From an uncultured Flavobacteriales bacterium (lineage in GTDB: Bacteria; Bacteroidota; Bacteroidia; Flavobacteriales_E; Vicingaceae): a DNA stretch of 50,053 nucleotides. The stretch is from NCBI GenBank assembly GCA_905479995.1, contig CAJQON010000029.1:1-50053 (forward strand). The letters run 5' to 3'. The translations under genes and the position numbers were made by a program. The notes beneath the pieces are model-generated. The model ran no database searches and was not told the origin of the DNA. It saw only the letters and a list, made by a program, of their open reading frames with translations. Shown here piece by piece: positions 13,850 to 23,549 of this stretch. How positions within the stretch are numbered: the first letter of the stretch is position 1; each line of letters begins with the position of its first letter.

Positions 13850-13852
13850 CGA

Positions 13853-14602
13853 TTGAGTTTTTTTGCTAACATATTTAAAAGAAACCCTAAACTTCCTCCA
13901 ATAGATTTATCTGTTTTTGGAACAGATATTCATTCGCATTTAATTCCTGGTATTGATGATGGAGCTCCAGATATGGAAGCTTCAATTAATATGATTAGAA
14001 GGTTTAAAGAGTTAGGCTTTAAAAAAATAATTACCACACCACATGTAATGTGCGACTTTTATAAAAACACACCTGAAAATATTTTAGGTGGATTAGAGGA
14101 TGTTCGTGCTGAATTGAAAAGATTGAATATTGACATTGAAATTGATGCTTGTGCAGAATACAATTTAGATGATGGTTTAGGTGAACTTATTGACCAAAAG
14201 AAAATTTTAACCATGGGCGATAACTATGTGTTGTTTGAATTGCCTTTTATGAGTGAGCCACCTAATTTTCAAGAGATAGTATTTAAGTTTCAAACCAGCG
14301 GATACAAACTTATATTGGCTCACCCTGAGAGGTATACGTATTGGTATGATAATTTTGAAATTTACGATGAGTTAAGGGCGAAAGGAATTTTATTGCAATT
14401 AAACCTATTATCGTTAACAGGGCATTATTCTCTGCAAACTAAAAAAGTGGCTGAAAAAATGGTAGAAGCTAACTTAGTAGATGCCGTAGGAACAGATTGT
14501 CATAGAATTGAACACTTAGGAACAATAGAAGGGAGTTTAACTTCTAAATACATCCATCAGCTGGCCAATCAAGCTAACCTTTTCAATAAAAAAGACCTTT
14601 AA
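13853..14602 (+). CDS. CpsB/YwqE-type tyrosine phosphatase, PHP fold
   Basis: A 249-residue metal-dependent protein-tyrosine phosphatase of the kind that dephosphorylates capsule-regulating BY-kinases. The PHP-domain ligands are visible: D-I-H-S-H-L-I-P-G-I-D-D-G (His27, His29), T-P-H, A-H-P-E-R-Y and the late D-C-H-R. The start is TTG at 13853, 3 bases after the preceding stop, and no nearby ATG would keep the N-terminal S-F-F-A-N-I-F-K-R. It closes the sugar operon and presumably tunes polysaccharide synthesis. No tyrosine kinase (Wzc-like) partner lies in the window. Its stop shares a TTAA with the convergent gene. Confidence 0.87.
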   Translation: MSFFANIFKRNPKLPPIDLSVFGTDIHSHLIPGIDDGAPDMEASINMIRRFKELGFKKIITTPHVMCDFYKNTPENILGGLEDVRAELKRLNIDIEIDACAEYNLDDGLGELIDQKKILTMGDNYVLFELPFMSEPPNFQEIVFKFQTSGYKLILAHPERYTYWYDNFEIYDELRAKGILLQLNLLSLTGHYSLQTKKVAEKMVEANLVDAVGTDCHRIEHLGTIEGSLTSKYIHQLANQANLFNKKDL

Positions 14603-18458: not shown

Positions 18459-20162
18459 TTAAAACTGAAAATAAATAAATGCTTGTAATTCGGAAGACAT
18501 GGCTTGGTAAACTACAAAAATACAAAGTGAAGCCACTAATATTTTAAGCACTAAAGGTAAACGAATAAATGTTTCGCGGTACCAATCTTTAACTTTTGTA
18601 GGTAACCAATGAATTACAAAACCGATTAACATAACGGTAAACACATTGCTGTATGAAATTAACACTTCTCCCATTAATTCAGGACTAAAACTGTTTCCAA
18701 TTCTATCTATAATTTGCCAAGTAGTTTCCATGTCTTCGGCTCTAAACCAAATCCGTGTAAACGTTATAAAATTAAACGTAATAAACACCTTAAGGAAAAT
18801 GGCTAAAAAGTTGTTGAATCGCTCGTAAGGGCTTATTTTTCTCCAAAGTTTGTAGACAACTAAACCTAAGCCATTTAAGCCTCCCCATATAACAAACTGC
18901 CAGCTGGCACCGTGCCATAAACCTCCAATTAACATGGTTATTAAAACATTAATATTGGTAATAAGCCATTCTCTAAAACGTTTTATAAAAATAGCGAGTG
19001 TAGCACAAAGCAAGGCCAGCCAAATAAATCCGTAGAGTACTATCATTTTACCCGAAAGCAATACAATAAATGTAACAATGAAAGCCAATGCTATCCATGT
19101 ACCAACACTTCCACCACGGTTACCACCCAATGGGATGTATAAATAATCTTTTAACCAAGAAGATAAACTGATATGCCAACGCTTCCAGAACTCACCAACG
19201 TTTTTAGCTTTGTAGGGCGAGTTAAAGTTTGTAGGTAGGGTAAAGCCCATTAATAAGGCAATACCTATAGCAATATCAGTGTAACCAGAAAAATCGGCAT
19301 AAACCTGCAACGAATAACCATAAAGGGCCATTAAGTTTTCGAAACCAGTAAACATTCCTGGATTATCAAAAATTCGATCGATAAAGTTAACGGCAATGTA
19401 ATCTCCTATTACTACTTTTTTGGTCAATCCTTTTAAAATCCAAAATAGTGCCAAGCCAAAATTGTATTTAGATAAACTATAAGGTTTGTAGAGTTGAGGT
19501 ATGAAATCTGCCGCTCTTACAATTGGTCCAGCTACCAATTGTGGGAAAAAGGAAACATAAAAACCAAAGTCTAGAATGTTATTTACCGGTTTAATGTCTT
19601 TACGATAAACATCTACTGCATAACTAATGGTTTGAAAGGTGTAGAAGGATATCCCGACAGGCAATAGTATTTGATTAACTTCAAAATGGCTACTGGTAAT
19701 AGTGTTGGTCCATTGGGCAAAATGATTAAATACTTCATAATTGGTATTGAAAAAAGCATTAAATGAATCTGTAAAAAAGTAGGCGTACTTAAAGTAGCAT
19801 AGCACAAATAAGTTTATAACAACACTAATTCCAACCCATATTTGTTTGCTGGCTATTTTTTCGGAGCAATAAATTCGTTTTCCAATTAAATAATCAGATA
19901 GGGTAGAGAAGAGGAGTATGGAAACGAATAACCCACTCGTTTTATAGTAAAAGAATAAACTAACAATAAATAGGAAAGCATTTCTAAGCCCTCTTTTTTT
20001 ATAAATGAGCGAATAAATAGCCAAGACAACAGCAAAGAAGGCCCAAAAGAAAAAACCTGTAAATATTAACGGTTCGTTATTGTGGTAAGTAAAGATGTGC
20101 TTGATATTTTCCATTCCGAAAAACCAAGTAAACCATTCTGATATGTTGGTTATTTTATCCAA
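18459..20162 (-). CDS. MBOAT family O-acyltransferase (AlgI-like)
   Basis: A 567-residue integral membrane protein with about 11 or more spans. The MBOAT signatures are W-K-R-W-H-I-S-L-S-S-W (326-336) and G-L-W-H-G-A-S-W (414-421), with His417 the expected catalytic residue. P-Q-L-V-A-G-P-I and Y-A-D-F-S-G-Y-T-D match the AlgI/DltB/PatA group, which passes acetyl groups across the inner membrane to envelope polysaccharide or peptidoglycan. Two SGNH proteins upstream in the operon are the usual partners completing the transfer. The start overlaps the HAD gene by 8 bases. The acceptor polymer is not shown by the sequence. Confidence 0.93.
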   Translation of the reverse strand: MDKITNISEWFTWFFGMENIKHIFTYHNNEPLIFTGFFFWAFFAVVLAIYSLIYKKRGLRNAFLFIVSLFFYYKTSGLFVSILLFSTLSDYLIGKRIYCSEKIASKQIWVGISVVINLFVLCYFKYAYFFTDSFNAFFNTNYEVFNHFAQWTNTITSSHFEVNQILLPVGISFYTFQTISYAVDVYRKDIKPVNNILDFGFYVSFFPQLVAGPIVRAADFIPQLYKPYSLSKYNFGLALFWILKGLTKKVVIGDYIAVNFIDRIFDNPGMFTGFENLMALYGYSLQVYADFSGYTDIAIGIALLMGFTLPTNFNSPYKAKNVGEFWKRWHISLSSWLKDYLYIPLGGNRGGSVGTWIALAFIVTFIVLLSGKMIVLYGFIWLALLCATLAIFIKRFREWLITNINVLITMLIGGLWHGASWQFVIWGGLNGLGLVVYKLWRKISPYERFNNFLAIFLKVFITFNFITFTRIWFRAEDMETTWQIIDRIGNSFSPELMGEVLISYSNVFTVMLIGFVIHWLPTKVKDWYRETFIRLPLVLKILVASLCIFVVYQAMSSELQAFIYFQF

Positions 20163-20802
20163 AGTTGATGCTTTCTAGTTCTAGTAATGAGTTTAGTTTG
20201 TAGTCGGCAATGTTAAAGCGTGCATCTTTTTTTGCTTCAAAATCGGGTATAGCGATAACTTTCATTAAAGCCGATTTCCCAGATAATACACCATGAAAAG
20301 AGTCTTCAATAACCCAGCAATCCATTGGTTTAACATTGAGTTGATTGGCAGTTTTTATAAATATTTCTGGGTGAGGCTTTCCATAGTCTAAGAATTCAGC
20401 TGAATTGACAACTTCAAAAGCTTCGGTTAAATTTAGTTTACTGAGTACTGTGTTTATTAATGAACTAGCCGATGAAGAAGCTAAGGCAATTTTGTAGCCT
20501 TTAACTTTAAAGAAGTTAATAGATTTTATTACTCCAGGCAATGCTTCTCCTTTTTCTACAATCAAGTCAGTTACTTTTTCAAGAATTGCTTGTTCTACCT
20601 CTTCAATAGATTTTCCTTGCCAAGGTTGTTCGGCATACCAATATTCTACTACTTCAATTAAGCGCATGCCTTGGGTGGTTCTGCATTTGTCTTGACTAAA
20701 ATCAAAACCAACTTTATTAAAGCAATGTATTAATGCTTCTCTCCACAAGGGTTCAGAGTCAATAATAACTCCATCCATATCGTATATAACTGCTTTACTC
20801 AT
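20155..20802 (-). CDS. HAD-superfamily sugar phosphatase, HxpB/YniC-like
   Basis: A 215-residue cytoplasmic phosphatase. Motif I is D-M-D-G-V-I-I-D-S-E-P-L-W (Asp8 and Asp10), motif II is A-S-S-S-A, and later blocks are K-P-H-P-E-I-F and V-I-E-D-S-F-H-G-V. The D-S-E-P-L-W form and the helical cap match hexitol or 2-deoxyglucose-6-phosphatase and beta-phosphoglucomutase relatives. It sits between the second SGNH gene and MBOAT, overlapping both by 8 bases, so it is translationally coupled into the acetylation operon. A role in sugar-phosphate clean-up is inference. Confidence 0.88.
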   Translation of the reverse strand: MSKAVIYDMDGVIIDSEPLWREALIHCFNKVGFDFSQDKCRTTQGMRLIEVVEYWYAEQPWQGKSIEEVEQAILEKVTDLIVEKGEALPGVIKSINFFKVKGYKIALASSSASSLINTVLSKLNLTEAFEVVNSAEFLDYGKPHPEIFIKTANQLNVKPMDCWVIEDSFHGVLSGKSALMKVIAIPDFEAKKDARFNIADYKLNSLLELESINFG

Positions 20803-22042
20803 TGTTGTTTAATAACATTAAGTGTTCATCGTATTTTTTTATTAAAGCAGAAAACATCAGGTTTCCCATTAGGTTATAACCGTCAGAGGTTAAGTGTATT
20901 TTGTCTGTTTTGGCATAACCGTGTTTTTGCCATGTTTTACAAGATCCTAATCCTCCCATAACATGGTACATGTCCCAAAGACCTCATTGGTGCTTCTTAG
21001 CTAATCTAATCATTGCATTTCTAGCACCTTCAACTCTTTTGTTCGGGTATCTTCTTTTGTAATAACTATCGTTATTGGTTACAAATAGCAATTCCGCATT
21101 TGGATTTACTGATTTAATCCATTTAATTAATTTGTCGTAATTGTCCTCGTAGCAGTCTTCACAAAAGTTAGGGTCGTAGGCATCGTTTATTCCTATGCAA
21201 AAAATAACTAAATCGGGTGGAATTGCTTGTAAGTGCTGAGCAAACAGTTCGCATCGTAAGTAACTTTTTGTGCTTGCACCATTTACTCCAATGGAGTTAT
21301 ATACAATACCTGCATCATTATTGTCAACACTAATACCATATAAATCAAATTGTGAAGGAATGGTGTCATCTCTATAAATACTAACATTAAAGCTATCTAA
21401 ATGATGGTCGAAAAGAAATTCGGTATAACCAATTTCATAGTTGGTATTAATGGATATAGCACTGTCCGAAGTAATTTCTATACAATAATTGGTAGAATCT
21501 ACATTGTGGAAAATTTTAACGCTGTTAAAATCATAATGTGGTGTGTCGTCTCCTCTAAAGTAAAAGCGTAAACTAGTTGCGCTATCTTTGGTAGTTGCTG
21601 TTATTCCAGAAACGCCCCAAGTGGCATGTTGTTTTAATAGTGAATTTCTAAAACCTTCCCATTTAGTGGTAGAATGCATGCGGTAATAGTAAGGGTTATT
21701 GGTGTTGGCTAATCTGTAAGGGAATAAGAACCCTCTTCCTCCATTTAGGTTGGGAGATAATTGCTGGAAATTGGTTCTCATTCTATTGGACCATATGTCT
21801 GCTTGGATGTGTGATCCACCAATTTGCATGACGTTTATTTTTCCTTTTCCTTCAAAAATTAAGGTGTCTAGTTTGTTAAAAAAGTGATTGAAATTAGCAC
21901 TGTCATCATAAAAATGAATGTAACTGGAATCGTATTGAACAAAAGAAAGATCTTTGGTTAAGTGTGGGTTGCTTTGTGCCAAACCATTTATGGAAGTTAG
22001 CGCAATTGCTATAAGGATTGTATATTTATTTAATGCTGTCAT
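20795..22042 (-). pseudogene. SGNH/GDSL hydrolase-like gene with one in-frame TGA
   Basis: Reading from 22042, the frame runs 352 codons, meets TGA at 20986-20984, then continues in the same frame for 62 more codons to TAA at 20797-20795. It has a signal peptide (1-22, ending L-A-Q), block I G-G-S-H with Ser77, and G-I-N-D at 284-287. Only after the TGA come G-L-W-D-M-Y-H-V-M-G-G and the catalytic D-K-I-H (Asp380, His383). The peptide ending at TGA would therefore lack Asp and His and be inactive. The paralogue at 22026-23549 has Cys at the TGA position before W-D-M-Y-E-V-M-G-G. No other damage is visible, so this is a recent nonsense change, a sequencing error or recoding. The 3' end overlaps the HAD start by 8 bases. 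Confidence 0.85.
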
Positions 22043-23549
22043 TTACTACTGGTACGGTTTCTTTTTTATAGTTCGGATTCTTATAAATGTTGTATAAATC
22101 AAAAAGCTTGGTATTAAATTCTAACGCCATCTTTTTTGCCCCTTTAGGACTAAAGTGGATGTAATCTTTGGCTGCAAGAGCAGGCTCTGCTTCAACCCAT
22201 TTTGGCATGGAGTTTTTACCACCCATAACTTCGTACATATCCCAATAAAGACAACCAGAACTTAGTGCTGCATCCTTCAGTGCATCTCTAACGGCTTCTA
22301 AATATGGGTAGGTAACATAAGTTGTTTTTTCTTTAACAGACATGTCAGAAGGGCCAATAACAATTATAGCGGCTTTAGGGTTCAGTCTTTTCATAAAATT
22401 AATTTGCGACTTAAACCAACGGCCATAATCAGTGGCGCCTTTATCGTTTTTAATGTAGGGAACAGAATTACCTCCAAACTCCATAATAATTAGGTTTGGA
22501 GAAAGATTCGCATACATGTTGCTTAATAATGTGGCATTTTGTTTGGTGAAAATAGTTCCTGATGAGCCTCTTAAAGGAATGTTGTCCATTACCACACCGC
22601 TACTTCCTTCTAAAGAAATTCCATAAATATCAGGACTGTCTCCACCATTAAAAGAGAGTAAAATTTCATCGGGAGTTTTTGTAAAACTGGCTGTTAATGT
22701 TTGAAAAGGAGTGTTTGGAGGAATTGTGCCAGTTTGAATTTCAATGCCATCTGCTTTAATGGAGTAATTAATGCTGGTGTGTGAGTTGCTTAAAAACACC
22801 TTCATCAAAGGGTATGATTTTGTTCTTCCATAAGATGCTCTTGGTTTTTTTATTTTAACCCAAGCTTCATAAGAAACTGTATCGTTAATAATTTCAGTTT
22901 TAGGAATTGGTGCAAACCTACAGAAAGCCATTAATGCTCCGTATTTGTTGTGAATAACTGTACTATCTTTTTTCCCAAAGCCAGGGTAGCGTTTCCAATT
23001 TTCTGAATATTCAGTATTAACACTCATTTTACGAGCAACAGGAACGATAGGGAATAGTCCAGGGCCATAGCCACCAAACTTTTTTTGCAATTCATTTCTC
23101 AATAAAGATGTTATTCTATCTGCTTCAATTTGAGAATCACCATAATGCATAATTCTTACTTTTTTATTTTTAGCTTGTTCTAAAGCAGCAAAAAAGTGGT
23201 TGATAGATGACTTTCCTTTCTCATTAATTTGAATGCTTTGTCTAAAAGCTTTTAAAGAATCCAGTTTGTGTTTAATAATAGTTGAGTCAATTTCACTCAC
23301 AACAACAGTAGAGTCAAATAGTTCTGCAATGTCATTTTCAATACTAGCCAAACTGTCGTCATTCATTTCTGGAACAAAAAAGTCCGTTATGGTTGGGAAT
23401 TGAATAGTGGTGTTGGCTATTTTAACTCCATCTTTAGGGAAAATAAACATTGTTGCGGCCAATATTCCACAAACCGCTATAAGAACCAGAAGCGTGATTA
23501 TAGGAGTAATACCTTTTTCTTCAGTTGTATGTTCTTTGTTTTCTTCCAC
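22026..23549 (-). CDS. Membrane-anchored SGNH/GDSL esterase-like protein
   Basis: 507 residues. One N-terminal membrane span (about 13-37) anchors a periplasmic SGNH domain. Block I is H-Y-G-D-S-Q-I-E-A-D (Ser139 nucleophile), block III is M-E-F-G-G-N-S, and the catalytic pair is D-Y-I-H (Asp462, His465). A carbohydrate-binding-like beta domain is inserted between blocks I and III. The arrangement is that of O-acetyltransferases or acetylesterases acting with MBOAT proteins (PatB or AlgX/J type). It starts one base after the LysM protein stop and overlaps the second SGNH gene by 17 bases, so the two are a tandem paralogous pair in one operon. Confidence 0.88.
   Translation of the reverse strand: MEENKEHTTEEKGITPIITLLVLIAVCGILAATMFIFPKDGVKIANTTIQFPTITDFFVPEMNDDSLASIENDIAELFDSTVVVSEIDSTIIKHKLDSLKAFRQSIQINEKGKSSINHFFAALEQAKNKKVRIMHYGDSQIEADRITSLLRNELQKKFGGYGPGLFPIVPVARKMSVNTEYSENWKRYPGFGKKDSTVIHNKYGALMAFCRFAPIPKTEIINDTVSYEAWVKIKKPRASYGRTKSYPLMKVFLSNSHTSINYSIKADGIEIQTGTIPPNTPFQTLTASFTKTPDEILLSFNGGDSPDIYGISLEGSSGVVMDNIPLRGSSGTIFTKQNATLLSNMYANLSPNLIIMEFGGNSVPYIKNDKGATDYGRWFKSQINFMKRLNPKAAIIVIGPSDMSVKEKTTYVTYPYLEAVRDALKDAALSSGCLYWDMYEVMGGKNSMPKWVEAEPALAAKDYIHFSPKGAKKMALEFNTKLFDLYNIYKNPNYKKETVPVVNDSIK

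Follow-up and report, generated by a model that had tools for sequence, protein, structure and literature searches.

An in-frame TGA ahead of an intact C-terminal tail in an SGNH esterase-like gene of an uncultured Vicingaceae bacterium: a candidate young nonsense allele

The SGNH_A-SGNH_B-HAD-MBOAT cluster and its interrupted gene

The window, i.e. the whole stretch of 50,053 nucleotides analysed here, carries on its minus strand a cluster in which an intact SGNH paralogue, SGNH_A (22026..23549; ORF, Pfam and alignment), lies upstream of a second GDSL/SGNH esterase-like ORF, SGNH_B (20984..22042; Pfam PF13472 Lipase_GDSL_2, E 9.4e-13), followed by a HAD-family hydrolase (20155..20802; ORF and Pfam) and an MBOAT membrane O-acyltransferase (18459..20162; PF03062, E 1.3e-23). 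The latter is the presumed partner of the SGNH proteins, and its match to the DltB model was under that model's own cut-off. Translation of the SGNH_B frame from 22042 to 20795 gave 352 codons, an in-frame TGA at codon 353 (20986-20984, i.e. 20984..20986; context CAA TGA GGT), an intact tail of 62 codons (20798..20983) and a TAA at the orthologous end (20797-20795, i.e. 20795..20797), which is overlapped by the ATG of the HAD gene (ATGAGTAA); no second in-frame stop was found over this frame. The tail reads GLWDMYHVMGGLGSC...TDKIHLT..., with both WDMYHVMGG and TDKIHLT within it, and thus holds Asp380 and His383 (D-x-x-H block, 20894..20905) at the positions given by the initial annotation. That annotation had described a single in-frame TGA followed by 62 open codons free of any other defect, with the W-D-M-Y-x-V-M-G-G motif and both residues encoded past it, and the translation confirms each of these points. 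A chance open frame is ruled out by 39 orthologues, whose C-termini align with the 62-codon tail. When the own genome (G000) was searched, SGNH_B had one match only and hence no second copy.

SGNH_B belongs with the SGNH/GDSL hydrolases, as its PF13472 match is over the cut-off and it has GGSH and GIND blocks, the D-x-x-H block being encoded only beyond the TGA; the NCBIfam search returned no family for either SGNH_A or SGNH_B. Block I (21809..21820) reads Gly-Gly-Ser-His, with Ser77 as the presumed nucleophile. GGSH is found in SGNH_B and its 17 closest orthologues, as opposed to Gly-Asp-Ser in the SGNH_A of the window (Gly where the paralogue has Asp), and given this difference the two proteins may have divided roles. 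Among solved SGNH proteins, L002, one of the orthologues, has three matches, 4k3u (E 8.9e-17), 8gkd and 8gld, and in the alignment its D-x-x-H, with which the block of SGNH_B aligns, falls on the D-x-x-H of 4k3u. The same spacing occurs in OafB, whose SGNH triad is Ser430-Asp618-His621 (PMC9833829, available portion). The block would be lost if UGA terminates, and the earlier claim that a terminated SGNH_B lacks its catalytic residues fits this alignment with solved esterases.

A further scan of contigs yielded 28 loci, all from MAG records (Vicingaceae, Vicingus, Flavobacteriales, related groups and one Bacteroidales), in 19 of which SGNH_A, SGNH_B, HAD and MBOAT stand in the same order, some loci, e.g. 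L089 and L095, being cut by contig ends. SGNH_A was found in 25 of the 28, several of them likewise cut. HAD and MBOAT were not found in the ~6 kb after SGNH_B at L085, L086, L089, L090 and L094; L090 and L094 also show no SGNH_A, and L089 lies so close to the beginning of its contig that an SGNH_A there could be missed.

MBOAT acyltransferases are known to be paired with SGNH/GDSL esterases in AlgI/AlgJ/AlgX. PatA/PatB is a further pair of an MBOAT acyltransferase and an SGNH/GDSL esterase (PMC9833829, in the portion available), with which the present cluster shares the SGNH profile, the Ser block, the D-x-x-H block and the MBOAT neighbour, but from which it differs by its two SGNH proteins, GGSH in SGNH_B against GDS in SGNH_A, and the added HAD hydrolase. 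Judging from family membership and from MBOAT-SGNH pairs like PatA-PatB, the cluster probably constitutes an O-acetylation module for a cell-surface glycan, of which SGNH_B would be the second SGNH esterase-like protein.

The TGA site in orthologues and the state of the tail

Orthologues of SGNH_B were searched in 60 genomes, the own genome included, and matches were obtained in 33. None of these matches contained a stop, but they end where the 352-residue query ends, and the TGA site was therefore read separately in the orthologues. Within the genus, 12 of 14 genomes had a match, among them all seven with a completeness of 90% or more (own included), and the two without a match are 72% and 79% complete. 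With the 28 loci of the contig scan the total came to 57 loci, from which 16 duplicates (scan proteins repeating the 60-genome search) and two further loci were removed, leaving 39 orthologous proteins. The two dropped loci were L022, which runs off its own contig before the TGA site, and L030, whose extracted frame stayed open through to another gene and past the end of the locus. For five of the 39 rows (L008, L009, L011, L029 and L102) the start of the extracted protein had been placed too far downstream, which leaves fewer columns for their upstream identities but does not affect the site or the tail.

In all 39 aligned orthologues the TGA position is occupied by a sense codon and the frame runs on to the C-terminus of the family, as the initial annotation had proposed to check in close relatives. 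The residues are Ala (22), Ser (7), Gly (6) and one each of Met, Leu, Val and Ile; none is Cys. The disabling change is consequently specific to the present lineage.

The same alignment bears on the idea that SGNH_B is a split gene whose tail would be translated separately by re-initiation, e.g. at Met358, so complementing the N-terminal part. There is indeed an in-frame ATG five codons past the TGA, but not one of the 39 orthologues is split at the site, no evidence of a start signal was found, and a 58-residue piece complementing in trans would be unusual, which together make this explanation vanishingly improbable.

When the tail was compared with the 17 closest orthologues, all 24 columns invariant among them proved to be kept, and only one of the 62 tail residues occurs in none of them; the part upstream of the TGA retains 121 of 122 conserved columns, with 8.5% of its residues novel. 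Thus neither relaxed constraint nor further decay was seen in the tail by these two measures. The tail is 79% identical to that of L002 and 60% identical to that of L008, the sequence closest to SGNH_B upstream of the site (75% identity). This ratio of tail to upstream identity is lower than for any other of the 18 sequences compared and could be read as a slight relaxation. Over the matched portion of residues 1-352, no relative in the 60-genome search exceeded 74% identity. When neutral point mutation of the tail was simulated with a simple model that ignores indels, the probability of a tail as good as the observed one fell from 0.54 at 0.005 substitutions per site to 0.30 at 0.01, 0.093 at 0.02 and 0.027 at 0.03, and a neutral divergence of the tail beyond roughly 0.03 substitutions per site is accordingly unlikely. 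The lack of decay implies that the stop is very young, or unreal, or that the tail is still in use; SGNH_B, if a pseudogene, is a very young one.

Selenocysteine, reassignment and read-through

The adjacent paralogue had been noted to carry Cys at the TGA position, and a UGA aligning with Cys had been taken as the classical appearance of a selenoprotein, in which UGA would encode selenocysteine in place of Cys. The alignment of SGNH_A from 28 loci, own included, confirms its Cys, which 20 of these loci have, and Cys also occurs in L030, a distant SGNH_B homologue of 29% identity that lies outside the 39-orthologue count. This Cys is, however, that of the paralogue and is shared by none of the 39 aligned orthologues. 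With bacterial selenoproteins SGNH_B has in common the in-frame UGA and the conserved downstream frame, but it differs from them in lacking Sec genes above cut-off in its genome, Cys in the orthologues, a significant hairpin and an expected redox site; redox chemistry is not expected in an SGNH esterase and, to our knowledge, no redox role is expected at the site aligned with the TGA.

Profile searches of the own genome (98.2% complete) gave no match for selA, selB matches that were all under cut-off, and a best selD match of 64.2 bits against a cut-off of 125. For tRNA-Sec, with 83 of the 98 first-look candidates scored, the own genome had four matches, all sub-cut-off, and of the three listed, two are at the sites of tRNA-Ser and one at that of a tRNA-Tyr. 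As controls among 14 genomes, matches over cut-off were recorded for tRNA-Sec (5), selA (1), selB (2) and selD (2). Hairpins were predicted past the TGA, but none was significantly better than shuffled sequences in the four stretches folded (z of -1.07, -1.34, -1.48 and -0.05; folding, as distinct from a bacterial SECIS finder), and Rfam detected only a tRNA in the window. Of the features that the initial annotation had suggested looking for, the Sec machinery was not recovered above cut-off, and no significant SECIS-like hairpin was seen in the stretches folded. In the available portion of a 2006 survey, Sec decoding was undetected in Bacteroidetes (PMC1794560), and the available portion of a 2016 survey gave no Sec count for Bacteroidetes (PMC5029168). 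The missing Sec genes in so complete an assembly virtually refute the selenoprotein reading, to which only a minute probability is given, and selenocysteine at codon 353 was rejected on the absent Sec genes together with the absence of Cys in the 39 orthologues. A UGA-against-Cys pattern can therefore arise purely from comparison with a paralogue, the question being settled by orthologues and a check for Sec genes.

Several Sec-related matches were observed besides. The GTPase part of the selB family also resembles EF-Tu-like factors, and in the own genome two EF-Tu-like selB matches, both partial and on different contigs (G000:C45:29548-29925 and G000:C19:89836-90396, profile positions 2-114 and 99-275), may belong to a single gene interrupted at a contig end. 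In a genome of the same class, selD lies in two pieces in different frames (L105, G043:C7:23200-24500), apparently broken by a frameshift; its GSGCGCK stretch has sense codons, so it is not a Sec-containing SelD. The congener G007, in which neither selA nor selB exceeds its cut-off, has a strong selD (L045, G007:C116; 437.8 bits), which perhaps serves selenouridine.

Genome-wide reassignment of UGA was also considered and rejected, since prfB is kept and TGA ends four other long ORFs of the window (5 of 38 with SGNH_B). The prfB match reaches 472.1 bits against a cut-off of 370 and has one internal TAA; the main length of its frame is open, with stops only towards the start, presumably a leader or the usual frameshift site. 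The tRNA-Trp of the own genome is canonical, with a full 5-bp anticodon stem and, read by eye from the sequence, A9 and G24, and no UCA anticodon was found among the 23 tRNAs identified (150 of 291 candidates scored, e.g. Ile, Lys and Pro tRNAs being missing from the list). According to the available portion of PMC13092985, tRNA-Trp with a 4-bp anticodon stem can read UGA; such UGA-to-Trp reassignment resembles the present case by a UGA inside a reading frame, but here UGA ends other long ORFs, prfB is kept and the tRNA-Trp stem has 5 bp.

These data also bear on functional read-through, whereby a near-cognate tRNA would decode UGA usefully, giving some full-length SGNH_B and keeping the tail under selection. 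The conserved tail and the G that follows the TGA are in keeping with it, but the stop is common to no aligned relative, so there is no conserved read-through site, the stem, A9 and G24 of the tRNA-Trp match none of the read-through features in the available portion of PMC13092985, no UCA anticodon appears in the incomplete tRNA list, no significant structure lies downstream of the TGA, and prfB is present. Functional read-through is thus possible but unsupported, and is rated improbable. A newly arisen, tolerated read-through yielding mostly truncated and some full-length SGNH_B is rated slightly lower still; if true, one substitution would have made the esterase a dose-reduced form with its tail still held by selection. 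Ordinary low-level leakage of UGA at codon 353 is possible, and programmed recoding of SGNH_B is unsupported.

Nonsense substitution or consensus error

Of the four options offered by the initial annotation, the one-base change and the assembly error are those which the preserved tail and the open orthologues favour; selenocysteine fell away and read-through found no support. The main rival to a nonsense allele is a consensus error: the TGA would have entered a draft assembly (59 contigs) through faulty sequencing or consensus calling, or would be the base of a minority strain, and the cells would carry an intact SGNH_B. The lack of decay in the tail fits this equally well and to that extent speaks against a nonsense allele, and SGNH_B is present in all seven genomes of the genus, own included, that reach 90% completeness; with 12 of the 14 genus genomes keeping the gene, its loss would be unusual. 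On the other hand, nothing points directly to an error: no homopolymer is found at the TGA site, and the neighbouring LysM/SLT, SGNH_A, HAD and MBOAT genes each align with L077 unbroken and over nearly their whole length. Moreover, a same-frame open run of at least 45 codons after the stop follows 5 of the 38 long ORFs of the window, namely SGNH_B, three which run into the next gene, and 13850-14602 (60 codons), which is antisense to another ORF; so explained, these runs leave no second interrupted gene in the window by this simple ORF test, which counts against an error-prone consensus. An artefact is a substantial but lesser probability.

A real and very recent nonsense substitution in SGNH_B is modestly favoured. 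Its likeness to a young nonsense mutation or incipient pseudogene lies in a gene otherwise intact with one in-frame stop, where all 39 orthologues have a sense codon; it differs in that the TGA is known from one strain and no clear decay is seen yet. One very recent lineage-specific substitution would have made codon 353 TGA, which RF2 reads as stop, so that the product would end after residue 352 without the last part of the SGNH domain, including Asp380 and His383, and presumably without activity. SGNH_B would then carry a young nonsense allele, fixed or polymorphic, rather than be a recoded gene. If the allele is real, it would show the initial step by which a gene kept by the genus is lost, and would raise the question whether SGNH_A alone suffices, as the operon would be left with one working SGNH partner. 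Weaker coupling to the HAD start, ~180 bases downstream of the TGA, would be a possible side effect of such an early stop.
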